Below are positions 8,958 through 23,904 of a stretch of 64,000 nucleotides of DNA, in pieces. Position 1 is the stretch's first letter. Every line of letters begins with the position of its first letter. The DNA comes from Bacillus sp. ISL-55 (lineage in GTDB: Bacteria; Bacillota; Bacilli; Bacillales; Cytobacillaceae), in assembly GCF_018613155.1 (NCBI RefSeq), contig NZ_JAGGQU010000031.1:95398-159397 (forward strand), in the 5' to 3' direction. Under the pieces are notes generated by a model. The model searched no databases. It saw only the letters and a list, made by a program, of their open reading frames with translations, and was not told the DNA's origin. A program made the translations under genes and the position numbers.

Positions 8958-10472
8958 TTAGCTGACTGGCTTCTGATTTTTACCTGCGATTTCCTTCAAC
9001 AGTTTTTTATCGATTTTGCCTACATGTGTCTTCGGCATCTGGCCAATGGTATGGATCACTTTCGGTACTTTATAACCGCCCAGCTTCTCCCTGCAATGCT
9101 TTTTGGCTTCCTGCTCTCCAAAATCGGCTCCTTCTTCAAGAACGATGAAGGCAGTTACGACTTCTCCCCATTTTTCATCGGGTATGCCGACCACTGCCGC
9201 CTCACGGATAGAAGGGTGGGAACAGAGCCAATGTTCAATCTCCAGCGGATACACATTTTCTCCGCCCGTGATGATCATCTCTTTTTTCCTGCCGACAATA
9301 TAGTAATAACCATCCCTATCCCTTTTTGCCAGGTCGCCTGTATAGAGCCAGCCATCCTTCAAGGTGTCTTCGGTGGCGCTCTTATTTTTCCAGTAAAATG
9401 AAAATGTATGATTCCCCAGGATGGCGAGTTCACCGACCTCATCCGATCCAGTCTCGTTGCCGTCTTCATTCAGGATCCTGATATTATGGAACAACATTGG
9501 CTTGCCGACTGAGCCTCTTTTTACATCCGCCTCTGAAGGGTCTATGTAAAAATTATTTGGGCCAGCCTCTGTCAGGCCATAACCCTCCTTGAAGGCGATG
9601 CCCTTCTGTTTGTAAGCATCATAGATTTCAAGCGGACACGGCGCCCCTCCTGATAAAAATAGCTTTATATCCTTGAATACTGCCTTTTGAAAGGAATCAG
9701 ATTTTATAAGCATATGGTGCATCGTAGGGACAAACAGGACGATTGTGCACTTATGCTCAATTAAATTATTAATCGCACTTTCCGGTGTAAAATCATTGGC
9801 CAGGACGACGGTGCCCCCTGCCATCAGGATTGGAACGGAAAGAGCATTCAGACCCCCTGTGTGGAATAATGGTAAATATGTCACCGTTCGGTCTTCATTC
9901 GTAAGATTCCAGCTGGCGATCGTGGAAATGCTATTCCAGATGATTGCCCGTTGTGACAGAACCGCTCCTTTTGGTTTGCCGGTGGTCCCGCCTGTATAAA
10001 TCATTGCCAGAGGGTCTTCTTCATCCAAATCCATTTCGCGCATTTCATGCTGGCCGGAGTCAATCAGCCTCGAGAATCGGGTACCATTTATTTGAATGCA
10101 GCGATTTTCCTCGCCCCAGATCATCGTCACTTCTTTTGTAAAACTTGAATGGAACGCAAGGATCGTGGGTTCACAATCTTTTATAATATAGGCTAATTCA
10201 TCGATAGAAAGCCTCCAGTTCAGCGGCACAAAAATTGCACCAATCTTTCCACAAGCAAACAGCAAATCAAAATAACAGATTCCATTTGGCGCGAGCAAGG
10301 CTATTCTGTCTCCCTTTTTTACCCCTTCTGTTTGCAGCCACGCTGCGATAGCTTTAGCCCGATCATTGACTTCCCTGTACGACCAGTCCTGACCTGTACC
10401 TGCATCGACAACCGCAACGGCCCCCGGGGTCAAACTCGCTCTCGCTTCAAGCCAATCGAGCTCCCACCTCAC
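8958..10472 (-). CDS. AMP-forming acyl-CoA ligase (ANL superfamily)
   Basis: This enzyme adenylates a carboxylic acid and transfers it to coenzyme A. ANL motifs occur in order: the phosphate-binding loop [12 protein letters not shown] near residue 160, GYGLTEAG near 300, YTGDLAKRD near 385, and the hinge and C-terminal lysine region GRKKEMIITGGENVYPLEIE near 400, ending with KTHVGKIDKK. An in-frame ATG lies at 10496, but the promoter -10 hexamer ends only 9 nt before it. I therefore prefer the GTG at 10472, which follows GAGGGAGAG and gives a typical N-terminus (RWELDWLEARASLTP). The upstream direct repeat is shared with livK, which ties this enzyme to the neighbouring transporter operon. The acid substrate is unknown. 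Confidence 0.9.
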   Translation of the reverse strand: MRWELDWLEARASLTPGAVAVVDAGTGQDWSYREVNDRAKAIAAWLQTEGVKKGDRIALLAPNGICYFDLLFACGKIGAIFVPLNWRLSIDELAYIIKDCEPTILAFHSSFTKEVTMIWGEENRCIQINGTRFSRLIDSGQHEMREMDLDEEDPLAMIYTGGTTGKPKGAVLSQRAIIWNSISTIASWNLTNEDRTVTYLPLFHTGGLNALSVPILMAGGTVVLANDFTPESAINNLIEHKCTIVLFVPTMHHMLIKSDSFQKAVFKDIKLFLSGGAPCPLEIYDAYKQKGIAFKEGYGLTEAGPNNFYIDPSEADVKRGSVGKPMLFHNIRILNEDGNETGSDEVGELAILGNHTFSFYWKNKSATEDTLKDGWLYTGDLAKRDRDGYYYIVGRKKEMIITGGENVYPLEIEHWLCSHPSIREAAVVGIPDEKWGEVVTAFIVLEEGADFGEQEAKKHCREKLGGYKVPKVIHTIGQMPKTHVGKIDKKLLKEIAGKNQKPVS

Positions 10473-10505
10473 CGCAATCTCTCCCTCTCTCGTCATGATG
10501 GGTTT

Positions 10506-10538
10506 ATTTTAGGAAATGGGAGTTACAGGATAGTTACA
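10506..10538 (-). promoter_or_regulatory. SARP-type direct repeat and promoter of the acyl-CoA ligase gene
   Basis: Read on the minus strand, TGTAACT, four bases, then TGTAACT (10538-10521) is followed after 9 bp by TAAAAT (10511-10506), a good -10 hexamer. No separate -35 is evident, because the second heptamer occupies that place. The layout is the same as at 19416-19448 upstream of livK. Confidence 0.7.
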
Positions 10539-10547
10539 TAAAACAAA

Positions 10548-10592
10548 ATCGCGAGCTCCCTGGTCAGCCCGTCAAGCGCTGAAGCTGGAGTA
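10548..10592. repeat. Short copy of the dispersed GCGC...CTGGAG repeat family
   Basis: The stretch contains CTGGTCAGCCCGTCAAGCGCTGAAG and GCTGGAGTAAG-type sequence (quoted here in parts: TGGTCAGCCC, TCAAGCGCTG, AGCTGGAG). These match the two ends of the larger elements at 14216 and 29160. It looks like an internally deleted copy. Confidence 0.6.
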
Positions 10593-10612
10593 AGAAACTT
10601 TCAGGTAAAATT

Positions 10613-10642
10613 CAAAAAACACCACAGCATCTGCCATGGTGT
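10613..10642 (-). terminator. Terminator downstream of the small gene at 10650
   Basis: On the minus strand ACACCA and TGGTGT pair around a loop with an inner short pair. They are followed by TTTTTTG. Confidence 0.75.
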
Positions 10643-10649
10643 CAAAAAT

Positions 10650-10985
10650 TTATATGCCTCTTAACTCTTCTTCCGTAAATAATCCCATGCTTTTTACATG
10701 GTTCCTGGCTTCAGCATCACCCAGTTTGTAGACCATCGCGTAAATCTCCTTCATCGTAAAGTCATATTCAGCATGTTCACGGTCCGGGTCCTTGAAAGGA
10801 TGAAGATGGGAATTTCCGTATGTTGCCCAGTCGGCTTTATAGTTTTCGGTGAGATACTCCCGCAAATCCTTGATTTCTTCACCTGTCGCCAGCAACGTGA
10901 ATAAATGGCCCTCAGGCTCAGCTGGTGTGTCCAGAACCTCACCGCTTTCTATATTAAAGTAGTACGTCTGCTTTGTTTCTTCCAT
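10650..10985 (-). CDS. Uncharacterised 111-residue protein
   Basis: I do not recognise this protein. It is soluble, acidic and has no membrane segment or signal peptide. It starts with METKQTYYFNIESGEV-like sequence (read as EETKQTYYF) and contains a histidine-rich patch, GNSHLHPFKDPDREHAEYD, in the middle. The ATG at 10985 is chosen because GGATGGGG sits 8 nt upstream; a GTG lies 9 nt further out. It lies between the FabG-like operon and the acyl-CoA ligase on the same strand but has its own terminator. Membership of the neighbouring regulon is therefore uncertain. Confidence 0.75.
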   Translation of the reverse strand: MEETKQTYYFNIESGEVLDTPAEPEGHLFTLLATGEEIKDLREYLTENYKADWATYGNSHLHPFKDPDREHAEYDFTMKEIYAMVYKLGDAEARNHVKSMGLFTEEELRGI

Positions 10986-11124
10986 GTATAACACCCCATC
11001 CTTTTTTAATACTATTTACCACTTTTGGAGATAGGTTAATCCTAAAGAGATAATTCGGGGAATTGAAAAGGTTGGAAGTGCCATGCATCCTTTGGTATTT
11101 TAGAGCACCTTTATACCATTCGCA

Positions 11125-11455
11125 GAGGGAACAGTTAGTTTTAACACCGGTTAGGGGAGATTTAATACCAGTTGGAACAGTTTTAATACCAGTTGACGCA
11201 TTTTTAATACGAGTGGGGTCGTTTTTAATATCAGTCGGGAGGATTTTCCAGGATTTGAGGATTTATTTTAACGGTTGTGAAGATTTATTTAACGGTTGGC
11301 TCGAATATTCATACGATTGGGATGATTTATTTAACGGTTGCAGCAAATATTCCCGGTTGGAACAATTTTATTCCCGGTTGGAGCAGATTTATTCCCGGTT
11401 GAAAGAAATTTATTCACGGTTGGAGCAGTTTTATTCCTGGTTGAATAATTTAAAC
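11125..11455. repeat. Degenerate 21-bp-period tandem repeat array
   Basis: About 14-15 imperfect units of 21 bp follow one another. The early ones are of the type TTTAATACCAGTTGGAACAGT in parts (TTTAATACCAGTTG plus variable tail). The later ones are of the type TTTATTCCCGGTTGGAGCAG. Because 21 is divisible by three, a frame stays open on the plus strand and would encode heptads such as YSRLEQI. That frame has no convincing ribosome binding site and runs into convergent fabG. It fills most of a 546-bp gap between genes. Confidence 0.8.
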
Positions 11456-11501
11456 TCCAATAGAATAGAAATCATTCCTTTCCCCATACCTACCCAAAAT
11501 A

Positions 11502-11526
11502 AAAAAGCGCAGCAAGTGCGCTTTTT
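11502..11526. terminator. Bidirectional terminator at the end of the KAS III / FabG operon
   Basis: AAAAAGCGCA and TGCGCTTTTT form a perfect 10-bp stem around GCAAG, directly after the stop of the FabG-like gene on the minus strand. Confidence 0.85.
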
Positions 11527-11530
11527 AAAA

Positions 11531-12271
11531 TCACATCATGATCCCGCCATCGACATGGAGGTTGGTGCCGTTCACGTATTTGGACTCGTCTGAGGCGAGG
11601 AATAGGTAGGCATGTGCGATATCCTCTGGCAAACCGAGCCTGCCAAGCGGGACAAGCATTTTCATTTGTTCAATCACTTTGTCTGGCACCGCTGCGGTCA
11701 TGCCCGTTTCGATGAAACCTGGCGCTACAGCGTTTACATTGATGCCTTTGCGGCCGAGTTCCTTTGCCCATGTTTTCGTCATCCCGACGACTCCGGCTTT
11801 TGTTGCTGCGTAGTTTGTCTGTCCCACGTTCCCATATATGCCGGAAACGGATGATGTATTGATGATTCTCCCTGAACCTTGCTGGACCATTGCTGGCACA
11901 ACCGCTTGAGCGCAATTGAATACGCCGGTCAGATTGACATCAACGACCTTTTGAAAGTCCTCTGCCGAAAGCTTATGAAGCATCCCATCCCTTGTGATGC
12001 CTGCATTATTTATTAAAATATCGATTTTGCCAAAGTGTCCTAAAACGTTTTGGACCAACGAGTCCACACTGGCCCTGTCAGCAACGTTCACCTGAAAAAA
12101 AGCGACTTCATAGCCCTCAGCAGACAGTTCGGCTGCTCGTTTTGATCCTGTTTCCTCATCAAAGTCCGCCATGGCAACCCTCGCGCCTTCACTAGCAAAA
12201 GTTTTAGCTGCAGCAAGCCCAATTCCGTTCGCTGCACCTGTAATAATCGCTACTTTATCTTTCAATCTCAT
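11531..12271 (-). CDS. FabG/PhaB-like short-chain dehydrogenase (3-oxoacyl reductase)
   Basis: This 246-residue classical short-chain dehydrogenase probably reduces a 3-oxoacyl-ACP or -CoA with NADPH, or works in reverse. It has the cofactor loop TGAANGIGLAAA near residues 12-23, NNAG near 87-90, the catalytic Ser of NTSSVSG, and YAATK (Tyr and Lys) near 150-154. The C-terminal NVDGG-type end (HVDGGIMM) is typical of FabG. It is the last gene of a run with an alpha/beta hydrolase 12 nt upstream, and it ends at a strong terminator. The neighbourhood suggests a dedicated pathway role rather than housekeeping fatty-acid synthesis, which is inference. Confidence 0.9.
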   Translation of the reverse strand: MRLKDKVAIITGAANGIGLAAAKTFASEGARVAMADFDEETGSKRAAELSAEGYEVAFFQVNVADRASVDSLVQNVLGHFGKIDILINNAGITRDGMLHKLSAEDFQKVVDVNLTGVFNCAQAVVPAMVQQGSGRIINTSSVSGIYGNVGQTNYAATKAGVVGMTKTWAKELGRKGINVNAVAPGFIETGMTAAVPDKVIEQMKMLVPLGRLGLPEDIAHAYLFLASDESKYVNGTNLHVDGGIMM

Positions 12272-12283
12272 AAAAACACCTTC

Positions 12284-13183
12284 CTACTCTAAAAATCCTT
12301 CAATATGCTGCAATAGCTGGTCCAGATCATCCACTAATGGCGAGTGGCCGCAATCCTTCAATTCCACAAACCTTGCACGCCCTGCAAAGTCCTCAACAAT
12401 TTCATCTGCCATCCTCTCAGTGACCACTAAATCTCTGTCACCCCGGAGCACAAGCACAGGAATCTGGATATCCTTCACCTGGCCTGTTCCATCCTTCAAG
12501 CCATTATTTAAAGCACTGATGTTGAAAGTATTAAGAGAATGGTAGACTTCAGCAAGATTGCGCTGTGTCAGCATATCATCAACATACTCGTCATAGAGAC
12601 GATCTTCCGGCTGACGATCGGTATAAATCAACATATTCCACATTGCCTTTAAAAACCCTCTATTTTCCTGGTCATAGGCCGTCTGGACGGCAATCGTTTT
12701 ACCAGCATCCGCCTTTACATCCTCATAAGTAACCAGACGGTTGTTAATATCCGGCAGACCTTCTGCACTCGTACCGAAGAACGGATACCCTCTCGTTGAT
12801 GCAGATGCGAGCAGCACAAGTTTTTCACAATAACGTGGGTAATCTGCGGCGAACTGCATCCCTACTGCTCCTCCCGTCGACCAGCCAACAAGTGCAAATT
12901 CCTTCAGCCCTATTTCATCTACAAACATTTTTACATCATCGGAAAAATCCTTGATTGACATGATCGGCTTATGATAGCTGGATCCACCGAACCCCCGAAG
13001 GTCCACCGCAAAAACTTTATATTCAGGGTCAATCGCGTCAATCAACAAGTCCCAATGCTTGGAAGATGTCATATTGCCATGGACTAAAAGAACATTTTTG
13101 GTTCCGCCATCCCGCTCCCTATAAGCGAATGTCTCCCCATTTGGCAAGCCAGCCTTCTTCATTTCCACTGCCGTTTTTTCCAT
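12284..13183 (-). CDS. Alpha/beta-fold hydrolase
   Basis: This is a 299-residue alpha/beta hydrolase. The oxyanion region is VLLVHGNMTSS, the nucleophile elbow is GWSTGG (Ser), and the catalytic His is in DCGHSPLVDD near the C-terminus. An acid residue occurs in the expected segment, VLRGDRDLVV. It could be an esterase, a thioesterase or a C-C bond hydrolase; the substrate is unknown. The ATG at 13183 overlaps the KAS III stop by one base (TAATG) with AGGGTG upstream. I therefore prefer it to the more upstream in-frame start at 13225. The overlap implies translational coupling with the KAS III-like enzyme, hence a common pathway. Confidence 0.9.
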   Translation of the reverse strand: MEKTAVEMKKAGLPNGETFAYRERDGGTKNVLLVHGNMTSSKHWDLLIDAIDPEYKVFAVDLRGFGGSSYHKPIMSIKDFSDDVKMFVDEIGLKEFALVGWSTGGAVGMQFAADYPRYCEKLVLLASASTRGYPFFGTSAEGLPDINNRLVTYEDVKADAGKTIAVQTAYDQENRGFLKAMWNMLIYTDRQPEDRLYDEYVDDMLTQRNLAEVYHSLNTFNISALNNGLKDGTGQVKDIQIPVLVLRGDRDLVVTERMADEIVEDFAGRARFVELKDCGHSPLVDDLDQLLQHIEGFLE

Positions 13184-14199
13184 TACAGCACACCCTTTCC
13201 CCAACGTATGGTTGTTGCGCCCCACGCATAGCCTATCCCTGCACTGACAAGAACTGCTACATTCCCGTCCTTCAATTTCCCTGCCTTTTCTGCCAGTTCC
13301 AGCGACAGGATCTGGTCAATCTGTCCAATATGCCCATAGTCTTCGAGGTAGATAGAGTTTTTATCTGTAAGCCCTAGCTCCCTCAATACAAAATCATGTG
13401 CCGAACGCTTCATGTGTAACATCCCGACATAGGAGATATCCTTTTTGGAAAATCCGCTTTTTTCAATGGACCGAGAGATGACCTGCAGGAAATTTGCCAT
13501 CGATTTTTGCTCGAGCCTTTCCTTCATTCCCTGTGGATCGAGAACATCAAGCTGGTACAGGCCTCGCTCCAGGGTCTCCGCAGAAATCGGATTTTTCGTT
13601 CCTCCCGCAACCACGACCACATCCTCGGAAAAAGAGCCATCCGTAATCATTTCTGTTTCCAGCAGCACATTCTCCTCATGGCCCTTTTGCAATAGAATCG
13701 CACCGCCGCCGGCCCCAAGATTATACATGAACCTTGTCCTCGGATTTTGGTAATCTATGAAATCACCATTACGATAGCCCCCAGCAAGGAGAACGGTATT
13801 GATCGCCGGGTCAGAGAGCATCATCCCTTTTGCAAGCTTCAGGGCCATCACGGTCGTTCCGCATCTTAGTGCCGTGTCAAAGGCCCAGGCATTCCTTGCA
13901 CCGATTTCCTCCTGCAGCTTGATTCCTGCTGTCCATAATGGATACTCCTTGTATTCCTCACCAATATAGATGACAAGGTCAATGTTCATTGGATCCATGT
14001 TTGCTTTTTCCAATGCCATTCTTGCAGCTCTGATTCCCATCTCACATGTATGATCATCAGGACCTGGCACCGGCTTTTTCCTGATTCCCATTTTTTCTTC
14101 CACAACTTGTTCGGGAATTCCTGCCAACCTGGCAATTTCCTCTCCTGTGATATGGTTTTCAGGAAGGTAAATTCCCGTACTGACAATGCCAATCTGCAT
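13183..14199 (-). CDS. KAS III-like 3-oxoacyl-ACP synthase family protein
   Basis: This 338-residue thiolase-fold condensing enzyme has the active-site cysteine in LRCGTTVMALK (about residue 113) and the catalytic histidine in LHMKRSAHD. The third position of the FabH triad, normally Asn in a GNTS motif, reads GHIG here, so a His appears to replace Asn. This sets it apart from housekeeping FabH and suggests a specialised acyl-transfer or condensation reaction. The start has a strong GAAGGAGG 7 nt upstream. It is followed by a hydrolase with a one-base overlap and then by a FabG-like reductase. A 240-bp repeat separates it from the upstream transporter genes. Family is certain; reaction is not. 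Confidence 0.88.
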   Translation of the reverse strand: MQIGIVSTGIYLPENHITGEEIARLAGIPEQVVEEKMGIRKKPVPGPDDHTCEMGIRAARMALEKANMDPMNIDLVIYIGEEYKEYPLWTAGIKLQEEIGARNAWAFDTALRCGTTVMALKLAKGMMLSDPAINTVLLAGGYRNGDFIDYQNPRTRFMYNLGAGGGAILLQKGHEENVLLETEMITDGSFSEDVVVVAGGTKNPISAETLERGLYQLDVLDPQGMKERLEQKSMANFLQVISRSIEKSGFSKKDISYVGMLHMKRSAHDFVLRELGLTDKNSIYLEDYGHIGQIDQILSLELAEKAGKLKDGNVAVLVSAGIGYAWGATTIRWGKGVL

Positions 14200-14215
14200 C
14201 TACTTGCCTCCTTCT

Positions 14216-14455
14216 AGAAAAGCGCAAGCGCCTTGGTCAGCCCCGACAAGCGCTGCCCGCCTAAAACGCCACGTCCTGTGGCTGGCGGGTCTAGCACATC
14301 CTGTGCCTCGGAGGGCCTGACAGTGAAGTCGTTCTTTGACTTCATTGGCAGGACTGAAGCGACCTCGAGCTGCTCAAAGCTAACGCTTCTCGCAAGATAC
14401 TCGAGGAGGCACTCACAGCGATGAAAACTGGCTAGGCGCTGGAGCTAGACACTAA
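14216..14455. repeat. Dispersed repeat element, copy A (inside the liv-KAS III operon)
   Basis: It begins AAAAGCGCAAGCGCCTTGG and ends TAGGCGCTGGAGCTAGAC, so the ends are inverted (AGCGCC / GGCGCT). In the centre (14316-14352) a 37-nt hairpin has arms CCTGACAGTGAAGTC and GACTTCATTGGCAGG. Relatives occur at 29160 and 62631, and short ones at 10548 and 54238. This copy has an extra block with GCCAC/GTGGC and GCAC/GTGC pairs. It fills the whole gap between the 59-residue gene and the KAS III gene. Confidence 0.85.
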
Positions 14456-14495
14456 TCTAAGTGCAAAAGTTTATACTTTTAAAAGAAAATCCATT

Positions 14496-14675
14496 CTATG
14501 AATCTCCAACAATTCCTTTAATAAATTCCATTGCCGACTCTATCGAATCAAACATGGCTTCCTTTTCTTCCTGCACATATGTTACTTTGACTCTCCAATA
14601 TTTTGTGCCGCTGTCCATTTCGATGTCCGCGAGCTGGAAACGAAGGACGAATGATGTAACTTGCTTTGTTTCCAT
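14496..14675 (-). CDS. Uncharacterised 59-residue protein coupled to livM
   Basis: This small soluble protein (METKQVTSFVLRFQLADIEM at its start) is not recognised. Its ATG overlaps the stop of livM by one base (TGATG), and GGGAGA lies upstream. It is therefore almost certainly translated and coupled to the permease. The sequence alternates beta-like and helical stretches, with a short amphipathic C-terminus (SIESAMEFIKGIV). A role as a small regulator or accessory of the transporter is possible, but nothing shows it directly. The dispersed repeat starts 40 nt after its stop. Confidence 0.75.
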   Translation of the reverse strand: METKQVTSFVLRFQLADIEMDSGTKYWRVKVTYVQEEKEAMFDSIESAMEFIKGIVGDS

Positions 14676-15688
14676 CACGTATCTCCCTGGCTGACAGTCT
14701 CTGATTCAACCGGAACAGATGCTTTCTTTTTCTTTCTGAATTTCAGTTTTTGCAAAGAACCGACGATGCCCATTGGGAAGAACATGACAGCGAGGATATA
14801 AATGATTCCGAAAAAGATGATCCATCTTTCGAAAATCCAGTGAACCTTTGCCAGTTCTGTCAGCCAGTGATGCGAAAACTCGATGATTCCCGCACCGATA
14901 ATCGCCCCGACAAGCGTCCCGACACCGCCAATGATTGTCATCAGCAAGGCATCAAGTGTGATATCCATGGTAAAAACACTTGTGTTCACGAATCTTAAGG
15001 AAACTGCGTATAAAATCCCCGCAATACCAGCGATGACTCCCGATACGACACTGGCAATGACTTTATATTGCAAAACGCTGAATCCAAGCGATTCTGTCCG
15101 CTGCTCATTTTCCCGAATCGCCTGCAGGACTCTTCCAAGCGGCGAATTAGTGAATCTTTTTAATAAAATAAAGACAATGACCATCGAACCAAGGCAAATC
15201 AGGTAAAAGTCAGTCCGGTCCTTAAGGAAGTCCGGTACCCTGAAAGTGAAGCCATCATTTCCATAAGTAACAGTGCGCCATTTTTCGGCTAGCACTAAAA
15301 ACAGTCCGGCGAATGCCATCGTCAGCATTGCGTAAAAATGACTTTTCAGCCGCAGTGTCAGCAGCCCGACAAAATAACTTACCACAGCAGTCAGCAGGAT
15401 CGTGACCAGGACAGCAAGCAGAAAGTAGCTCGTTTCTGGTTCGAATCTTTTCATAAAGACACCAACCGTGTAAGCCCCGATGCCAAAGAACATCGCATGG
15501 CCGAACGAGACAATGCCCGTGTATCCGAGCAGGATGTCATAGCTCATTGCCAATACAGCAAAAATGAACACCTGAGAGAGAAGAATGAGCAAGCTTCTTG
15601 AATCATAGACAAAAGGAAGCACGGCCAGGAAACCGGCGACAAGCAAATATAAGATGTTCATGCGACTCGAAACCATTCTTGTCATCAT
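14675..15688 (-). CDS. livM: Branched-chain amino acid-type ABC transporter permease LivM
   Basis: This is the second permease of a Liv/Urt-type (HAAT) ABC importer. The 337 residues contain about 9-10 hydrophobic segments and the LivM signature GYTGIVSFGHAMFFGIGAY near residue 55, with a charged cytoplasmic C-terminus. It follows livH by 4 nt and overlaps the next small gene by one base. Liv-type importers carry branched-chain amino acids, urea, short amides or other small acids. The actual substrate here probably relates to the acyl-CoA ligase, KAS III and reductase encoded downstream. Confidence 0.93.
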   Translation of the reverse strand: MMTRMVSSRMNILYLLVAGFLAVLPFVYDSRSLLILLSQVFIFAVLAMSYDILLGYTGIVSFGHAMFFGIGAYTVGVFMKRFEPETSYFLLAVLVTILLTAVVSYFVGLLTLRLKSHFYAMLTMAFAGLFLVLAEKWRTVTYGNDGFTFRVPDFLKDRTDFYLICLGSMVIVFILLKRFTNSPLGRVLQAIRENEQRTESLGFSVLQYKVIASVVSGVIAGIAGILYAVSLRFVNTSVFTMDITLDALLMTIIGGVGTLVGAIIGAGIIEFSHHWLTELAKVHWIFERWIIFFGIIYILAVMFFPMGIVGSLQKLKFRKKKKASVPVESETVSQGDT

Positions 15689-15692
15689 TTCC

Positions 15693-16553
15693 TCACCCCT
15701 TTGCCCCGAATAAGCCCTGCGGCCTGAAAATTAATACCACTGCCATCAGCAGCATGTTAGCGGCCAGCGCCAGGTCTGGCACATAATAAGCCATGAAAGA
15801 ACCTGACAATCCAACCAGAATCGCGGCCATCACCGAGCCTGTAAAGCTGCCCATTCCGCCAATAACCACTACGATGAATGCGAGGATCGCGAATTCCATC
15901 CCCATGTCGGCATAAATCACCCCGGAGTATGGCCCTAGCAGCATTCCCCCAAGGGCAGCCATGCCTGCCCCAATCATGAACACAAACATGAATACTCTCT
16001 GGATGTTGACGCCAAGAGATTGGACCATTTCCTTGTTCATGACGCCGGCGCGAACGACCAGGCCGACCTTTGTATTTTTCAGCAGGTATTGTACAGCAAG
16101 GAATACAGCAAATCCCACGGCAATAATGAAAACCCGGTATTTTATGATGATGATGCCGCCAAACTCCCAGCTGCCAGAAAGGTAATCAGGGGTTACCGCT
16201 GAAATCTGGTTAGGTCCCCAGACCACTTTTAACATTTCTGATAAAACAAGCATCAAGCCGAGCGTGATTAATATTTGCTGTACATGGTTGCCGTAAACCG
16301 GCTTGATGATCCAACGCTCGGTTACAATTCCAAGAATCATGCCAGTAAGGATGGCACCGATGATCCCAATAAAAAAACTCCCTGTAGACGTATAAATCCA
16401 AATGCCACTGTACGCACCCCAGGCAAACAAACCACCATGGGCAAAGTTTAGGACATCCATCAACCCAAATATCAAAGTAAGACCGGCTGCCAGAAGGAAG
16501 ATCAGCATTCCCGTGGCAAGGCCGTTAAGGCTCAAGTTAATCAGTACGTCCAC
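15693..16553 (-). CDS. livH: Branched-chain amino acid-type ABC transporter permease LivH
   Basis: This is the first permease of the Liv-type importer, 286 residues with about 8 membrane segments. The LivH signature LIFGLMDVLNFAHGGLFAWGAY is visible near residues 27-48, and the ABC-coupling region GVNIQRVFMFVFMIGAGMAALGG follows in the second half. The start is a GTG with GGGGGAAG upstream. It lies 17 nt after livF and 4 nt before livM, in one operon. Confidence 0.93.
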   Translation of the reverse strand: MDVLINLSLNGLATGMLIFLLAAGLTLIFGLMDVLNFAHGGLFAWGAYSGIWIYTSTGSFFIGIIGAILTGMILGIVTERWIIKPVYGNHVQQILITLGLMLVLSEMLKVVWGPNQISAVTPDYLSGSWEFGGIIIIKYRVFIIAVGFAVFLAVQYLLKNTKVGLVVRAGVMNKEMVQSLGVNIQRVFMFVFMIGAGMAALGGMLLGPYSGVIYADMGMEFAILAFIVVVIGGMGSFTGSVMAAILVGLSGSFMAYYVPDLALAANMLLMAVVLIFRPQGLFGAKG

Positions 16554-16570
16554 TCTTTCTTCCCCCTTTC

Positions 16571-17278
16571 CTACGCAATGCCGAGATATTTCCGTCTCAT
16601 TTCTTCGTCCTCACGAAGGAGGTTCATCGAGCCGTTCGAAACCGTCCTGCCATCATCGATGATGTAAAAGCTGTCGCCAATACTGCTGGCCATCATGAAG
16701 TTTTGTTCTACAAGGATGATTGTCGTTTTATCCTTCATTTGCTGGATGGATTCCATAACCTTCTCGACAACGATTGGTGCAAGGCCTTTACTCGGTTCAT
16801 CGATCAAGAGCAGTTCATTATCATTGACGTATGCTCTTGCGATAGAAAGCATCTGCTTTTGGCCTCCGCTCAAAAGCCCGCCTGGTTTTTTCCAGAACTT
16901 CTTCAAATCAGGAAAAAGATCAAGAATCCAATCCAGTCGCTGTTGGGTCTCAGCGTTCTCTTTTTTGACTGCCACCTTGATATTTTCTTCGACAGTCAGG
17001 CCGGCGAAGATCCCCTGGTCTTCTGGAACATATCCAATTCCTTTGTTTGCAATCGAATAGGTTGGCAGACTCTGTATTTCTTCTCCTTTAAATTGAACCG
17101 AACCTTTAGCAGAGGGGTTCAGGCCCATGATGGTCCTGAGTGTTGTTGTTTTACCGGCACCATTCCGGCCAAGCAGCACCGTAACTTCCCCTTTTGGCAC
17201 TTCAAATGAAATACCTTGAAGGATGTGATACTGGCCAATGAATGTTTCAACTTGTTCAAGCTTCAGCAGCGTGTTCAC
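16571..17278 (-). CDS. livF: Liv-type ABC transporter ATP-binding protein LivF
   Basis: One of the two ATPases of the importer, 235 residues. It has Walker A GRNGAGKTT, the Q-loop, the signature LLSGGQKQMLSIARA, Walker B LLLIDEPSKGLAP and the H-loop ending in EQN. LivF typically has a Gln-Asn pair here instead of a plain His, as seen (LVEQNFMMA). The start is taken as the GTG at 17278, which has GGGAGG 8 nt upstream and overlaps livG by 23 nt. An upstream in-frame start at 17317 would add an unrelated extension. Confidence 0.93.
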   Translation of the reverse strand: MNTLLKLEQVETFIGQYHILQGISFEVPKGEVTVLLGRNGAGKTTTLRTIMGLNPSAKGSVQFKGEEIQSLPTYSIANKGIGYVPEDQGIFAGLTVEENIKVAVKKENAETQQRLDWILDLFPDLKKFWKKPGGLLSGGQKQMLSIARAYVNDNELLLIDEPSKGLAPIVVEKVMESIQQMKDKTTIILVEQNFMMASSIGDSFYIIDDGRTVSNGSMNLLREDEEMRRKYLGIA

Positions 17279-18029
17279 TATGCAAACCTCCCAAATAGGC
17301 AGACTGAACCGTTTCATTTTTCATGATCTCCTCTGGCGTACCATCAGCAAGCAGTGCGCCATTGAACAGAACCATGATGGAATCAGAAAGGTCCATGATC
17401 ATATCCATTTTGTGTTCAATCAAAATGATCGTCCGGTCGCCGCGTTGTTTGATTTTCCTGATTACCTCGAGGATTGCCGGAACCTCTTCCAGTGACATGC
17501 CTGCCGTCGGTTCATCGAGCAGCAGCACCTCTGTGTTCAAAGCAAGCAGCATGGCGATCTCCAGCTTCCTTTTCTCACCATGTGCAAGGTTCCTTGCAAG
17601 TGCATCCTTCTTGTCATCGAGCAACACCAGCTTCAACCACTCTTCTGCCTGCTCCTCAAATTTTTTAAAGGAACGAAAATGCCTGAGCATCTTGTAGCGG
17701 ACTCCTTCATGAGACTGTACCGCAAGACGGACATTTTCCATCACTGTCAGATTGGGGAATACATTGGTAATCTGGAAGGACCGTCCAATTCCCGCCCTTG
17801 TTCTTTTAGTCGGAGAGAGCTTTGTGATATCAATGCCTTTATACATGACCTGTCCTTTCGTCGGCGCGAGCTGCCCGCTCAACAGGTTGAAGAAAGTCGT
17901 TTTCCCGGCACCGTTCGGACCGATGATTGATTTAAAATGATTATGCGGGACTGAGATGCTGACAGAGTCTACCGCGGTATGGCCGCCAAATGTAATGCTA
18001 AGCTCTTTCGTCTCGATAATTGCCGTCAT
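17256..18029 (-). CDS. livG: Liv-type ABC transporter ATP-binding protein LivG
   Basis: This is the second ATPase, about 257 residues. It shows Walker A GPNGAGKTTFFNLLSG, LAHGEKRKLEIAMLLA in the signature position (the Liv/LptB-type LxHGEKR variant of LSGGQ), Walker B VLLLDEPTAGMS and the H-loop LIEHKMD. The ATG at 18029 has AAAGGTGG upstream and gives the canonical N-terminus TAIIETKELSITFGG. The longer frame to 18116 would translate the intercistronic hairpin and is rejected. Confidence 0.93.
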   Translation of the reverse strand: MTAIIETKELSITFGGHTAVDSVSISVPHNHFKSIIGPNGAGKTTFFNLLSGQLAPTKGQVMYKGIDITKLSPTKRTRAGIGRSFQITNVFPNLTVMENVRLAVQSHEGVRYKMLRHFRSFKKFEEQAEEWLKLVLLDDKKDALARNLAHGEKRKLEIAMLLALNTEVLLLDEPTAGMSLEEVPAILEVIRKIKQRGDRTIILIEHKMDMIMDLSDSIMVLFNGALLADGTPEEIMKNETVQSAYLGGLHSEHAAEA

Positions 18030-18073
18030 GTACTTCACCACCTTTGATTGGATTACATTCGATTCAGTAAAAG

Positions 18074-18111
18074 CATAATGAACTTCGGCTGAGTTACCGA
18101 AGTTCATTATG
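18074..18111 (-). promoter_or_regulatory. Perfect intercistronic hairpin between livK and livG
   Basis: CATAATGAACTTCGG and CCGAAGTTCATTATG form a perfect 15-bp stem with an 8-nt loop, 5 nt after the livK stop. No T tract follows on the minus strand. It is more likely an mRNA-stabilising or partial-termination element that keeps binding protein in excess over the membrane complex than a full terminator. Confidence 0.7.
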
Positions 18112-18116
18112 AACAC

Positions 18117-19364
18117 TTAGTTCCGGATTGGAGGAGCTGTTTCTTCTGGAGAGAGCTCGCGGATCAGGACAGGGACTGGATAGTCGACTCCTTCTTTTTT
18201 CTCCAGCTTGATTGCGTATAATGCCTGGAGTGCCTGATGGTCCTCTTCACGGAATGTCATTTTTCCTTTTGGTGATTCAAAGCTCATTCCTTCCATCGTT
18301 TCAATCAGCTTTTTGGAATCAGTGTCCCCTTCTGTTTTCTTCAATGCTTCGACGATCGCCATCGCAGCTGTCATGCCTCCTGGTGTAAATAGATCTGGCA
18401 GCTCACCGTTAAAGCGCTTTTTATGTTCATCAACAAGCCATTTATTGATGTCATTTTGCGGGAGATCATGATAATAAACAGTGAAGCCTTCCATGCCGAC
18501 AAGCGGCTCCATCGTGGCAAGTGCAGCGATATCTGGTGCACCAGTAGAGATTTTGATGCCTTTTTCCTGGACCTTCATATCTGAAATCTGGTTCCATGGC
18601 GAATTCGCGCCCGCCCAGACAACAAATAAGTAATCAGGCTTTTGGTCGATGATTTTCTGGATGTTCGAAGTGAAGTCAGTTGCAGCTGGATCTGCATATT
18701 CTTCGTGGATGATTTCGGCGCCAAGTTTTTCGGCTGCTTCTTTAAACGCTGCAACGCCATCACGTCCAAAAGAATAATCCGGAGCAAGAGTCGCGATTTT
18801 CACACCATCCTTCGCGATTGCAGCAGCACCCGCAACAGCATCCTGTGATGAGTTACGCGCCGTACGGAAGATGTATTCATTGAATTCAGAGCCTGTGATG
18901 CTGTCTGCTACAGCTGGCTCGACGATCATGATTTTTTCATATTCCTCGGCAAGCGGCAGGACTGCCAGCGTGTCACCTGAGCTTGAAGATCCGACCAGGA
19001 AATCTACTTCATCCTCTTCCAGAAGTTTCGTCGCTTTCTGGACCGCTACCTCAGGTTTGGTTTCTGTATCTTCCACAATGAATTCAATTTTTCGGCCCGC
19101 GACTTCATTTGTTCCATTAGTGGCGTATTCAAGGCCGAGCTCGAACCCGCGAAGAGTCTGCTTCCCATAAGCTTCAAGACCGCCTGTCTGCGAAGCCAGC
19201 ACACCAATTTTAATCGGTTCTGAGTTCTTCGGTTCTGAGTTCCCTTCTTTCTTCCCTTCAGTGCCTCCTGACTTCTCAGTTCCCGATCCACTGCAGGCAC
19301 TTGTAAACAACAGTACCAAAATGAGCATAAATGATAAAACAAAATTCCGCTGACCAGCTTTCAT
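18117..19364 (-). CDS. livK: Liv-type ABC transporter substrate-binding lipoprotein
   Basis: This 415-residue extracytoplasmic receptor has a lipoprotein signal peptide with lipobox FTSAC (Cys24) and a low-complexity Ser/Gly/Lys linker. The mature part is a periplasmic-binding-protein type I fold (family 5/6, Leu/Ile/Val and amide-like): IKIGVLASQTGGLEAYGKQ at the start and an LVGSSSSGDTLAVLPLAEE segment in the first lobe. It is the first gene of the liv operon and is preceded by the TGTAACT direct-repeat promoter. The ligand is not deducible from sequence alone; the downstream enzymes point to an acid destined for CoA activation. Confidence 0.92.
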   Translation of the reverse strand: MKAGQRNFVLSFMLILVLLFTSACSGSGTEKSGGTEGKKEGNSEPKNSEPIKIGVLASQTGGLEAYGKQTLRGFELGLEYATNGTNEVAGRKIEFIVEDTETKPEVAVQKATKLLEEDEVDFLVGSSSSGDTLAVLPLAEEYEKIMIVEPAVADSITGSEFNEYIFRTARNSSQDAVAGAAAIAKDGVKIATLAPDYSFGRDGVAAFKEAAEKLGAEIIHEEYADPAATDFTSNIQKIIDQKPDYLFVVWAGANSPWNQISDMKVQEKGIKISTGAPDIAALATMEPLVGMEGFTVYYHDLPQNDINKWLVDEHKKRFNGELPDLFTPGGMTAAMAIVEALKKTEGDTDSKKLIETMEGMSFESPKGKMTFREEDHQALQALYAIKLEKKEGVDYPVPVLIRELSPEETAPPIRN

Positions 19365-19415
19365 TTCCTTTCCCCCTTTAAAATGTTGATTCCAAAGCCC
19401 ATTAGCTTTGACATC

Positions 19416-19448
19416 ATCTTAAAAAATGCCAGTTACAAATGAGTTACA
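19416..19448 (-). promoter_or_regulatory. SARP-type direct repeat and promoter of the liv operon
   Basis: On the minus strand TGTAACT, four bases (CATT), TGTAACT lie at 19448-19431. They are followed after exactly 9 bp by TAAGAT (19421-19416) as -10. The layout matches the acyl-CoA ligase promoter at 10506-10538 in heptamer, spacer and distance. The 11-bp period places both heptamers on one DNA face, as in promoters bound by SARP-family activators. Confidence 0.7.
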
Positions 19449-19553
19449 TCATGCAGAAAATTAGTTGTTGAAGTTCTAAAAATGAATGAAAAGTGAAACC
19501 CAAAAGAGGCGTATTCCGTATAGAGAGATACATAAAAAAGGGGGACAACTTCG

Positions 19554-19811
19554 ATGGATTCCGTATTTTTGTTTATCCTGATCCTTTTCACACTTCCATG
19601 GATCATTACAACCATCATCATGACGCCGATCCAGTACAGATATATCAAAAGAATGGAAGAAATAAAGAAACAGAAGCAGCTTTCACAAAGTCAAATGTAC
19701 GAGGAAATGCCTGTGCAGGAAGAAATCCTTCATATGAACCTGCAATCGAATATTTTGTTCATTCCGGCAAATATCATTGCAGGATTAATTTATAAGTACC
19801 GGCAACGGTAA
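19554..19811 (+). CDS. Small two-segment membrane protein, unknown function
   Basis: This 85-residue protein has an N-terminal hydrophobic helix (about residues 3-24) and a second one (about 65-80, NILFIPANIIAGLIYKY). A charged, Lys/Glu/Gln-rich linker lies between them (RYIKRMEEIKKQKQ). The start follows AAAGGGGG with good spacing. It is not recognised. It is divergent from livK and precedes another small gene on the same strand. Confidence 0.7.
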   Translation: MDSVFLFILILFTLPWIITTIIMTPIQYRYIKRMEEIKKQKQLSQSQMYEEMPVQEEILHMNLQSNILFIPANIIAGLIYKYRQR

Positions 19812-19840
19812 AACACTAAATCTTCCAAATAAAAAAGTAT

Positions 19841-19894
19841 CCCCTCCAACTTTTATGGCAATAACGTTACTAAATTGCCAAAAACATGGAGGGG
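19841..19894 (+). promoter_or_regulatory. Leader hairpin that sequesters a ribosome binding site
   Basis: CCCCTCCA (19841-19848) is the perfect complement of TGGAGGGG (19887-19894), which is the ribosome binding site of the gene at 19901. Between them a second perfect stem forms (TGGCAAT 19856-19862 with ATTGCCA 19874-19880). In the folded state the start region would be closed. Confidence 0.65.
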
Positions 19895-19900
19895 ATTTCT

Positions 19901-20218
19901 ATGATGGGAATCTATTTGATCAATGAAAAGATTCATATAAATGGACACGTCCAGGATGAAAGTGTTGAAATTCAGCAAAGCCTGCTGCTTGATTTCATGA
20001 AGAAAGAGAATATTCAGCCTGTAAAATTGAATCCATACCAGCTGAACGAGCATTATACGATTCCACATGCACTGCTTTATGATTTAAAACTCCATAGAAA
20101 GCAGATTGATTGCCTGCTGATGTACTCCAATGAATCTATCGAAGATTTCGCTGCAACCTATCCTGCAAGATGGCTGATCCTGAAGAGTTATTTTGACACC
20201 GTTCTAACTGTCGCCTAA
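19901..20218 (+). CDS. Uncharacterised 105-residue protein with a folded leader
   Basis: This soluble protein starts MMGIYLINEKIHINGHV, has no membrane segment and is not recognised. The ATG at 19901 is 6 nt after GGAGGGG; an upstream in-frame ATG at 19886 would itself lie inside the hairpin arm. The ribosome binding site is fully paired in a predicted two-stem leader, so translation may be controlled by temperature, an RNA or a ligand. It ends 24 nt from the convergent glyoxalase-family gene. Confidence 0.72.
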   Translation: MMGIYLINEKIHINGHVQDESVEIQQSLLLDFMKKENIQPVKLNPYQLNEHYTIPHALLYDLKLHRKQIDCLLMYSNESIEDFAATYPARWLILKSYFDTVLTVA

Positions 20219-20242
20219 GGCAGTAATAGCATCAGTTCCAAG

Positions 20243-20644
20243 TCAAAAGCCGTCTGTCCCGCCAAAAGCGATGCAGTAGCCATCAAGATCTTTGACTGCA
20301 AACTCTTTCCAAGGGCCATTATTTTCATCAACCCATGGATCGATGGCGATTTGCGCACCCTTTTCCTTGAATTCTCGATATAACTCATCAAGCGAATTCC
20401 AGTCTTCCACATAGCAATAAAGGTCGAACCCTTGCTGCTCCCCTGATGCCGGCGGATTAGGCCTCACTTCCTTGGGGTCGCTGGCTTCCAGCAGTTTTAT
20501 TGCCAGTCCTGAAAATCCATCTCGGATGGCCCACCAGTCGGTCACCTCACAGCCTAGTACATCACTGTAAAACTTCCGCGATTTTGCCAGGTCCGATACC
20601 AATAAAACCTTCAATGAACTGTGAATCTGTCTTTTTGTTTCCAT
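20243..20644 (-). CDS. VOC (glyoxalase/bleomycin-resistance) family protein
   Basis: This 133-residue protein has the paired beta-alpha-beta-beta-beta modules of the vicinal-oxygen-chelate fold: SLKVLLVSDLAKSRKFYSDVLG at the N-terminus and FDLYCYVEDWNSLDELYREFKEKG in the second half, ending FAVKDLDGYCIAFGG. Possible roles are an isomerase, a dioxygenase or an antibiotic-binding protein. It begins 18 nt after the large SARP-like regulator gene with AGGAGG upstream, so the two are probably co-transcribed. Confidence 0.85.
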   Translation of the reverse strand: METKRQIHSSLKVLLVSDLAKSRKFYSDVLGCEVTDWWAIRDGFSGLAIKLLEASDPKEVRPNPPASGEQQGFDLYCYVEDWNSLDELYREFKEKGAQIAIDPWVDENNGPWKEFAVKDLDGYCIAFGGTDGF

Positions 20645-20661
20645 TCCATCCTCCTGTAAGT

Positions 20662-23600
20662 CTATTGATTTTGTCCTTCAATAATCATTTCATACATATG
20701 CTTGGTTGGATCGAGCGGAGTGACTCCAAGTTCTTCCTCCAGCACTTCACTGCATTTATTATACCAGCGGATGGCTTGCGGGCGATTGTTCTTCCGATAA
20801 TAGCAAAACATCAGCAATCGATAGGCTTCCTCCCATGTTCTGTCTCTGTGGAGGATTTTTTGGCACCAATGAATGGCAGCATCATAGTTTTCACGCCTTA
20901 CATTTAGCTGCGCCAGTTTCTCTGCACTTCGCAAAAAGTAAACAAGCAGCCTTTCTCGCTCATTGAGGCACCAGTCCTCATATCGTCGTTCAGGAAGATA
21001 ATCCCCATTATACAAATTCAATGCACGCTCTAGTTCTTCCATTGATTTTTCCGTATTCTTCTCTTCAAGGCCGGCTTCTGCCCATTCTTCAAATATACGC
21101 GAATCCAGTTCGATTGCTGCCTGGGGGTTAACTCCGTATCCCGCTCCTTCCCTGATAATGAAAAATGGGGCGGATCTCGCTTTGCGCGAAGGCTCCAGGA
21201 CATTATTCAAGGCATTCAGGGCAACTTTAAAATCTCTGTCTGCATTCTTTTCCTCATGGGTCGGCCAGAGAATCTGGAAAATATCCTCCTTCATCAGGAA
21301 CTGGTTCCTCCTTGTCAAGAAAAGCTGGAACAGCTCTTTTGCCTTTCCCCTCTGCCAATCCCTGTCCTCCACTTCCCTGTCCCCCAGCCAGAGCCGGAAC
21401 TGGCCAAGCGTTTGCACCCTTAATGTATAGCCAGGATGAGTACTCAGGCGATGAATCTTCAAATCCTCCAACAGCTTCTCTGCATATCCTGGCACAATGG
21501 ATTGCTTTACCGCTTCAATGAGCATAGGTATGAACATTTGCAAGTCCCGCGGCCCAAATGTCGTCCGCTTCTTCAGGAAAAATTCATATCCGCCTGTCTT
21601 CATCAATTTTAAAAAGCTTGAAAATGCTGATCTGAATTCCTCTTCTTCATTCAATGAAAAATAATAATAGGACTTCCAAAACGACAGCAGCATCCTGCCA
21701 TATTCATCACCACACTGGTTGATCAGCCCCTCTGCTTTATGAAGGTTCTCGCACGCCTCCTTGTGCCTGTCATTATAAATTGACGCAATCGCCAGGCAAA
21801 GCGTTATAAGTGCTGAAAGCCAGACATCCTTCACCTGTTCTGTTTCAAGCAGCGCCTTTCGTCCAGCCTCAGCAGCCCGCTCATATTCACGCCTTGAGCC
21901 GTAAAGAATACACAATCCCATCAGCGGCTCTGCCTTCCCTCGTTCGATGCTCAGACGTCCCATGATTTCAAGTGCCGTTTCATAGCATTTTTCAGCCAGG
22001 GTCAGATCGTACTGTTCAATGAGTTGAACGGCATGCCCCATCCTGATCCATCCGCAAGCCTCCACAAACGGAGCTTGGATATCAATCCCATACTGTATCC
22101 CTGATTGTGATAAAGTTTTTGCCTTCATGCCATTGCCTGTAAAAGCTTCAATCAATGCCAGAAGAAGATCTGTCTCCCTGTGTGATTGCGGCAAATGCAG
22201 TTTTTCATCCAGATGGCCAATCGCCTTTGCATCCGTTAAAATCCTTCTCGTTTCTTGAAATCGGCCGGTCCTCAAATATAACCGGGCTTCCAGGTTTCCA
22301 TCCTCTATAAGAACCCCCATCGACCTTGCCCGTTCAATCCACCTTTCTGCCTTCAATGCCTGCCCGGAATTGATCAGGTTTTCAGCAAGCAGGCGATAGA
22401 GCCTTCCCGTTTCCTCCGCGGCATCTTCAAGCATCTCCGCTTCCCGAAGCTCAATTGCCTGAGCTAAGATGCGCTCAGCTTTAAGCGGCTGGATTGTATC
22501 AAGATAAATTTTTGCTTTGCCCTCAAGTGCCTTGCTTTTCCAAACTGCATTTCCCATCCTGTCAGCTGTCTGTATTGCCTGTTCATAGCATGCTTCCGCT
22601 TGCTTGTACAATGAGCGATAGCGGTACACTTCTCCCTCAAGAAATAAAAGGGAACAATAGCGGCTTTTGTCTTCCAGTGGGATTCTCGCTAGCCGCTCCT
22701 GCAGATTCTCGAGCTTCCCCATTTCGAGAAGCTCCATCCCCTGTTCGTCCATTATCGCTGCAGCAGCGCTGTATTGGCCAATTTTCTCATAACAGTATAA
22801 TGCCTCTTCCCACTGCCCCTTTTTTTCAAAATAATGGGCACTGTTCATCATTAATCCTTTGTATTGACCAGGCTGGCTAGTAATCAGCCTGTTCTCGAGG
22901 AATTCTCGAAAAAGCGCATGATACCTGAACTGGCTGTCGCCTATCTGCTGGATGAAAAGATTTTTCGCATTCAGCTGCTGCAGCATCTGGATGGAACCGT
23001 TCATACCGAGGATGTGATCGCAGATATCCGTACTTATTTCCTCAAAGATACTTGTCTGTTCAAGGAATTGCTGGATCATTGGAGGCTGTTTCGAAAACAC
23101 TTCATGAACCAGGTATTGAAACAGGTCCTCAAGCGACTTTGCCGGCTCTGCCAGGAGATCATCCAGGCTTTGCAGGTGAGGAAGCTGCTGAGCGATCATT
23201 CCAATGGCAATGACCCATCCTTCTGTAATTTGATACAACTGGTCGATCTGTTCGTCACTGATAGCAAGCTGATAATAATCAGAAAGGAGCAGTTCAATTT
23301 CTTCTTTGCCAAAAATCAAATCTATCTTTGATATCTCATTCAATTCATTTTTAGCCCTTAACTTAGCCAGCACTTTCCAGCCGGGCTTCGTCCTCGTCGA
23401 AATAACAAGATGGAGATGTCCCGGCATGTGCTCCAGCAGTTTTTCTATCCAGACGTTGATATGGTAGGAATGTTCGATTGCGTGGAAATCATCCAGGATG
23501 ACAACGATCTGTTCAGGTATTTGGAGTACCTCATTGATGAAAAGCGAAGAGAGCATGCTAAGTTCCTCTTCTCTTATATAACGGTCCATTTTTTTCATAT

Positions 23601-23904
23601 AAGAGATTAACTCATGGCCAAAATCCGGGAACAAGGTTTGAATCGAGGCTGTCAAATAGGATAGAAACGGGAGAATATCGTCATCCGAAGAAGTGATTGT
23701 ATACCAGCAGCATGACTGGTTCTGATCCTTGACATGCAATGCGAGAGCTGTGCTCTTTCCATAACCGGCACCTGCCTGGATGATGGTCAGCGGCTTTTGA
23801 GTAATCGCTTTCATTTTTTTCGATAATCTGGCCCTTCTGATCCATTGATCCTGTAAGCCAGGAACAATTAATTTTGTTTTGATCAATGGCAATGTTCCCT
23901 GCAT
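20662..23904 (-). CDS. Large STAND-ATPase transcriptional regulator with TPR and C-terminal SARP (winged-helix + BTAD) domains
   Basis: This 1080-residue regulator has three parts. Residues about 1-330 are a MalT-like STAND/NTPase domain with Walker A QAGAGYGKST (about 43-52) and Walker B VVILDDFH. Residues about 350-810 are helical repeats of TPR type (for example ALYCYEKIGQYSAAAAI, AEACYEQAIQTADRMG). Residues about 828-1080 are an OmpR-type winged helix (LRVQTLGQFRLWLGDREV, RGKAKELFQLFL) followed by a BTAD domain, the order found in SARP/AfsR activators. LuxR-type MalT proteins carry a different DNA-binding domain. SARPs bind direct heptamers spaced 11 bp apart, and exactly such repeats occur at two nearby promoters. 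It probably senses a metabolite and activates the liv/acyl-CoA block. Confidence 0.88.
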   Translation of the reverse strand: MQGTLPLIKTKLIVPGLQDQWIRRARLSKKMKAITQKPLTIIQAGAGYGKSTALALHVKDQNQSCCWYTITSSDDDILPFLSYLTASIQTLFPDFGHELISYMKKMDRYIREEELSMLSSLFINEVLQIPEQIVVILDDFHAIEHSYHINVWIEKLLEHMPGHLHLVISTRTKPGWKVLAKLRAKNELNEISKIDLIFGKEEIELLLSDYYQLAISDEQIDQLYQITEGWVIAIGMIAQQLPHLQSLDDLLAEPAKSLEDLFQYLVHEVFSKQPPMIQQFLEQTSIFEEISTDICDHILGMNGSIQMLQQLNAKNLFIQQIGDSQFRYHALFREFLENRLITSQPGQYKGLMMNSAHYFEKKGQWEEALYCYEKIGQYSAAAAIMDEQGMELLEMGKLENLQERLARIPLEDKSRYCSLLFLEGEVYRYRSLYKQAEACYEQAIQTADRMGNAVWKSKALEGKAKIYLDTIQPLKAERILAQAIELREAEMLEDAAEETGRLYRLLAENLINSGQALKAERWIERARSMGVLIEDGNLEARLYLRTGRFQETRRILTDAKAIGHLDEKLHLPQSHRETDLLLALIEAFTGNGMKAKTLSQSGIQYGIDIQAPFVEACGWIRMGHAVQLIEQYDLTLAEKCYETALEIMGRLSIERGKAEPLMGLCILYGSRREYERAAEAGRKALLETEQVKDVWLSALITLCLAIASIYNDRHKEACENLHKAEGLINQCGDEYGRMLLSFWKSYYYFSLNEEEEFRSAFSSFLKLMKTGGYEFFLKKRTTFGPRDLQMFIPMLIEAVKQSIVPGYAEKLLEDLKIHRLSTHPGYTLRVQTLGQFRLWLGDREVEDRDWQRGKAKELFQLFLTRRNQFLMKEDIFQILWPTHEEKNADRDFKVALNALNNVLEPSRKARSAPFFIIREGAGYGVNPQAAIELDSRIFEEWAEAGLEEKNTEKSMEELERALNLYNGDYLPERRYEDWCLNERERLLVYFLRSAEKLAQLNVRRENYDAAIHWCQKILHRDRTWEEAYRLLMFCYYRKNNRPQAIRWYNKCSEVLEEELGVTPLDPTKHMYEMIIEGQNQ

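Follow-up and report, generated by a model that had tools for sequence, protein, structure and literature searches.

A 1080-residue regulator encoded in a 64,000-nucleotide (nt) stretch of the genome of Bacillus sp. ISL-55 (GCF_018613155.1, contig NZ_JAGGQU010000031.1, positions 95,398 to 159,397 of the forward strand; hereafter, the window) is likely to be a one-component sensor-activator whose SARP module drives a regulon for the use of polyhydroxybutyrate (PHB) fragments from the direct repeat TGTAACT-N4-TGTAACT. We consider it fairly probable, if with less confidence, that this regulon spans the order Bacillales, with a MalT-type sensor that carries a C-terminal SARP module detecting 3-hydroxybutyrate or its oligomers and driving PHB depolymerase secretion, Liv-type import, and coenzyme A (CoA) activation; many Bacillus-like bacteria appear to switch their genes for PHB-fragment uptake and use by this sensor. 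The regulon passed every genomic test run (conservation, co-occurrence, and count in its own genome), and these sequence comparisons support the regulon proposed in an initial annotation of the window.

The repeat and its promoters

The exact repeat occurs only twice in the 4,519,545-base source genome, and both copies lie in the window, before livK and the acyl-CoA ligase gene, where the initial annotation had placed them; the random scatter over the genome that it had named as grounds for rejection was not seen. When up to two mismatches were allowed, the pattern matched 25 places, the two exact ones included, versus 60 for the reversed pattern used as a control; the exact form alone therefore carries the signal in this genome, and the two-mismatch near-matches were rejected as regulon members. 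Both predicted -10 hexamers were confirmed at 9 bp from the repeat.

A promoter set drawn from the window and the loci of the family comprised sites with no more than one mismatch, 85 on the livK side and 76 on the ligase side. Of 84 distinct livK promoters, 83 have a -10 hexamer that starts 9 nt past the repeat, as do all 74 distinct ligase promoters (157/158 pooled), the odd livK promoter (L174 from G050) having 8 nt. The hexamer is conserved at 1.44 bits on the livK side and 1.57 bits on the ligase side, while the N4 spacer (0.52 and 0.42 bits) and the 30 nt upstream of the repeat (means of 0.17 and 0.11 bits) are variable; conservation of the heptamers themselves is inflated because the sites were selected on them, the other positions being unselected. 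Among upstream regions not selected for the site, 83/84 livK and 76/79 ligase regions hold one with no more than a single mismatch; in the livK exception (L119), the site lies further upstream, and the ligase misses are L138, which has a two-mismatch site, L172, and L174. No regulator upstream region holds the repeat (0/79), and autoregulation through it was rejected on this count.

The initial annotation had seen no other -35 element, and indeed the match to a classical -35 at 16- to 18-bp spacing in the family promoters was no better than in shuffled sequence. If the -10 occupies -12 to -7, the repeat, as two units of 11 bp, spans approximately -39 to -18, which is within a base of the AfsR-bound afs box at -40 to -19 in the excerpted text of PMC10936776. 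The SARP-like geometry that had been proposed thus fits, although the distance to the -10 is 9 bp (8 in the one divergent promoter) and not "about 8."

The ligase ATG at 10496, previously taken as the start, lies only 9 nt past the -10, and 13 of 19 promoters of the genus lack it; the GTG at 10472, behind AGAGGGAGAG, is therefore probably the true start (Table 1). In the livK leader, just past the -10 (window positions 19370 to 19415, minus strand), a hairpin CAAAGC...GCTTTG is present, its energy ranging from -6.8 to -11.2 kcal/mol in the loci listed for the genus. Letters resembling TCAAAGC at its start are conserved more widely and the pairing is not; the hairpin, inconsistent beyond the genus, was rejected as a conserved feature. 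This conservation could possibly reflect a second regulatory element or a constraint on the transcript start.

Table 1. Features of the regulator, its candidate operators, and the predicted target genes (window positions)
Feature	Position	Strand	Remarks
livK-operon candidate operator, TGTAACT-CATT-TGTAACT	19431..19448	-	exact; conserved in relatives
livK promoter -10, TAAGAT	19416..19421	-	9 nt after operator
Ligase candidate operator, TGTAACT-ATCC-TGTAACT	10521..10538	-	exact; conserved in relatives
Ligase promoter -10, TAAAAT	10506..10511	-	9 nt after operator
Regulator, 1080 aa: MalT-like STAND ATPase, TPRs, C-terminal winged helix and BTAD	20662..23904	-	
MalT-like STAND region, residues 7-410	22675..23886	-	8BOB, E 1.1e-24
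SARP module, residues 827-1076	20677..21426	-	
livK, substrate-binding protein	18117..19364	-	Peripla_BP_6
livG, ATPase	17256..18116	-	profile matches
livF, ATPase	16571..17317	-	profile matches
livH, permease	15693..16553	-	profile matches
livM, permease	14675..15688	-	profile matches
KAS III-like enzyme (NF005308)	13183..14199	-	529 bits, cut-off 315
PhaZ-like intracellular short-chain PHA depolymerase (NF050089), predicted	12284..13225	-	455 bits, cut-off 300
FabG-type short-chain dehydrogenase	11531..12271	-	319 bits, cut-off 296
Acyl-CoA ligase (AMP-binding)	8958..10496	-	true start probably GTG 10472

Distribution of the repeat and the regulator

We searched 193 genomes of the family for the regulator at E <= 1e-30 and obtained matches in 94, of which 88 were counted as orthologue bearing; this number includes fragments and broken copies, and six genomes matched at 25-31% in the N-terminal part only were dropped (G023, G047, G093, G115, G147, and G182). 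The exact repeat is present in 80/88 regulator-bearing genomes versus 2/105 others (Fisher p 4e-42, a value that ignores shared ancestry), and in the reversed control, 6 of the 193 genomes yielded 7 sites between them. Eight regulator-bearing genomes have no exact repeat (G002, G097, G114, G153, G163, G179, G181, and G185); in all of them except G163, a somewhat looser pattern that includes a -10 detects a site, examined in context in all but G153. Under this looser pattern with a -10, the counts are 86/88 versus 1/105, with G050 and G163 lacking the pattern and G044 having it.

Across the order, we sampled 397 genomes, 16 of them from the same family, at a regulator threshold of E <= 1e-60. 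The regulator was found in 99 and the repeat with a -10 in 98, 93 being common to both, so that the pattern is present in 93/99 genomes with the regulator versus 5/298 without it (Fisher p 2e-76, again ignoring shared ancestry); the reversed control gave 2 sites. Six genomes have the regulator without the pattern (G163, G244, G253, G265, G389, and G453). Four of these (G244, G253, G265, and G453) carry a repeat with 0 or 1 mismatch right after the regulator gene, with CATAAT or TATAAA at 9 nt, and were missed because the pattern excluded such -10s. Of 20 order loci read as whole regions, 19 have both sites, and each of these 38 sites has its -10 at 9 nt; L233, the remaining locus, is truncated at a contig end. 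The repeat is therefore kept in relatives that have regulator and operon, as the initial annotation required, and nearly absent from genomes without the regulator.

As a natural control, we used 30 genomes of the family chosen because they have no orthologue of the regulator. No livK match was found in 23 of them at E <= 1e-80; in the remaining 7, tblastn located a livK-like gene (67-75%) that is in no case preceded by the repeat, the best match within 400 nt having 5 mismatches. The 7 regions (L354-L360) contain a livK-livG-livF cluster, in 5/7 cases beside a KAS III-like gene (42-43%), and probably represent a related system under other control.

Domain composition of the regulator and related systems

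The initial annotation's reading of the regulator as a STAND ATPase at the start and a winged helix plus BTAD at the end was borne out. Residues 7-410 align with residues 2-402 of 8BOB (E 1.1e-24), and Pfam detected BTAD (E 1.1e-21), TPR_12, and, weakly, the winged helix (PF00486, E 0.013); the predicted structure of the C-terminal module has an AfsR/EmbR fold over 241-246 residues. AfsR contacts bases through T88 and R92; with narrower regulator queries the AfsR alignment was lost, and in other comparisons AfsR lay outside the alignments listed. The full protein scored 234 bits on NF003420 (MalT), under its cut-off of 537. MalT carries a C-terminal LuxR-type helix-turn-helix (HTH); no LuxR HTH was found in the regulator by Pfam at E <= 0.001, and BTAD stands in its place. 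The regulator thus shares the STAND ATPase region and TPRs of MalT-type proteins and the order of OmpR-type winged helix then BTAD of SARPs. According to the excerpted text of PMC10936776, SARPs have this module N-terminally, with extra domains C-terminal, which is not the case here, and bind direct repeats of 11-bp pitch that overlap the -35, the 3' repeat lying about 8 bp from the -10, which is the arrangement found here. Predicted fold and operator geometry together support membership in the SARP family, despite the unusual position of the module.

Among known systems, Escherichia coli MalT resembles the regulator in its N-terminal STAND region (8BOB) and TPRs; it differs in the HTH. SARP-type DNA-binding modules are known mainly from antibiotic-producing actinomycetes. 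AfsR of Streptomyces coelicolor, a "large" SARP with NOD and TPR domains, has the reverse domain order, whereas in the regulator the SARP module is C-terminal, the ATPase is MalT-like by sequence match, the heptamer is another one, the host belongs to Bacillales, and the predicted targets are catabolic. PimR and other SARP-LAL proteins likewise join a SARP domain to a large ATP-binding protein and recognize heptamers with 4-nt spacers, two being needed for binding, in the part of PMC5930380 available; however, the PimR SARP domain is N-terminal, its three CGGCAAG repeats at pimM are clear of the -35, and it controls an antibiotic. DnrS of Thermus thermophilus is an activator outside the actinomycetes with a C-terminal BTAD, but it has an N-terminal GAF domain and acts in denitrification, and its description in the accessible portion of PMC5748679 gives no operator. 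The PHB-binding regulators PhaR/AniA also concern PHB metabolism and are set apart, by their abstracts, as storage regulators associated with PHB granules. In the full-text literature, subscription papers being mostly outside reach, no account of this regulator, its repeat, or the regulon was found.

If the proposed regulon is real, it would represent SARP-type activation with a precise operator and regulon in Bacillales, outside antibiotic control. It would predict a sensor, an importer, and enzymes for extracellular PHB use in Gram-positives, which bears on bioplastic breakdown, and would make strains without a PHA synthase and a secreted depolymerase, like the source strain, scavengers of PHB fragments released by others. 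Its 158 distinct natural promoters would allow tests of how a SARP substitutes for the -35, and it would offer a compact candidate inducible promoter.

Target genes and competing explanations

The regulon is wider than the initial annotation had proposed, and it has a likely function. Seven exact repeats lie outside the cluster in the family, and four precede a depolymerase-like gene (G001, G011, G073, and G191, the last gene being truncated); the others (G018, G024, and G158) were judged to be chance matches, given the 7 sites of the reversed control. In the four former genomes, as in G050, where the site has one mismatch, the gene directly downstream encodes a secreted Esterase_PHB protein. 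Using the G001 protein as query, we collected 25 family genes from 19 genomes and, for the order, the best match in each of 30 genomes out of the 38 that had one. Within 350 nt upstream, a site with no more than 2 mismatches precedes 7/12 family and 15/16 order genes in regulator-bearing genomes versus 0/13 and 1/14 (G519) in genomes without the regulator (22/28 versus 1/27 combined). All four site-bearing proteins scanned scored 323-329 bits on NF050058, the model for type-1 extracellular short-chain polyhydroxyalkanoate (PHA) depolymerases (cut-off 150), which, like the NF050089 match in the window, predicts activity. Neither the PHB/3-hydroxybutyrate theme nor this third target class, the secreted PHA depolymerase genes of relatives, had been noticed in the initial annotation.

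We propose that the MalT-like STAND ATPase and TPR region senses a small molecule and that the C-terminal SARP module would bind the repeat as a side-by-side pair, one protomer per heptamer. Placed 9 bp upstream of the -10, the bound module would stand in for the -35 element and recruit housekeeping RNA polymerase to livKGFHM-KASIII-phaZ-SDR (SDR, the short-chain dehydrogenase), to the ligase gene, which has a promoter of its own, and, in species having one, to the secreted type-1 depolymerase gene. The first of these is assumed to be one transcript, although 475 bases separate livM from the KAS III gene. Extracellular PHB would then be cut and 3-hydroxybutyrate or oligomers imported by the Liv-type transporter; PhaZ would hydrolyze the oligomers, the ligase would activate the monomer, and the SDR would oxidize it. 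As inducer, 3-hydroxybutyrate, an oligomer, or its CoA ester is the probable candidate. In the source genome, no protein reached the cut-off of TIGR01836, a class III PHA synthase model that may under-score class IV; an "intracellular" depolymerase without a synthase would fit hydrolysis of imported oligomers.

Several observations weigh against this proposal. None of the counts corrects for shared ancestry, and the repeats accompany the cluster. The repeat occurs without the regulator in G018 and G044 of the family and in G459, G478, G479, G519, and G555 of the order. Depolymerase genes without the site in regulator-bearing genomes comprise G562 in the order and five in the family (G065, G066, G102, and two in G157), the latter forming a more divergent type that matches the query at 43-46%. 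The order count left out G244, G251, G257, G286, G389, G447, G506, and G544, as well as second copies, and G244 and G389 carry the regulator. The source genome has no Esterase_PHB protein. What persists across relatives is a core of regulator, Liv importer, and ligase; KAS III, PhaZ, and SDR were undetected beside it in the L098-L100 regions. Finally, among solved structures, the relatives closest to the ligase are annotated as fatty-acyl- and feruloyl-CoA synthetases (8WEU and 8WEV), and those closest to LivK are substrate-binding proteins named without a ligand; the substrate is therefore the least certain step.

The same ligase relatives favor a system with the same regulator and operator acting on another substrate, an aromatic or other carboxylic acid such as a hydroxycinnamate freed by a secreted esterase, and Esterase_PHB families also hold feruloyl esterases. 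We consider this unlikely, as the secreted esterases score well above the cut-off for short-chain PHA depolymerases and the operon has an independent intracellular one together with a FabG-type SDR. It is very unlikely that the repeats bind another factor encoded elsewhere and that the regulator only travels with the cluster: regulator and promoters are usually linked, so that linkage alone could yield co-occurrence, and G519 has its site without a regulator, but unlinked depolymerase genes have the site in regulator-bearing genomes, livK-like genes of regulator-lacking genomes do not, and the repeat geometry fits what SARP domains bind (PMC10936776, in excerpt). Least probable of all is that the regulator represses from the repeat until a ligand lifts repression; a protein bound where a -35 would be could block polymerase, but there is no -35 better than shuffled sequence to repress, and AfsR and MalT are described as activators in the same excerpt.

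Some loci depart from the usual arrangement. In regulator-less G044 (L125, G044:C7:65800-73800), the exact repeat and a -10 lie between PhaZ/SDR and MFS/AddB genes, at the position of the ligase in relatives, with a glyoxalase-like gene following; this site looks like a decaying remnant. In L132 (G015), livK genes were undetected and the repeat precedes the KAS III gene beside a split regulator match, and in L148 and L160 the repeat stays with livK even though the operon lies 13-15 kb away from the regulator. The interval between regulator and livK contains a KAS III-like match (42%) in L224-L226 and a second AMP-ligase-like match, approximately 0.75-0.9 kb past the regulator, in L316, L318, L320, L322, L325, and L348-L350.

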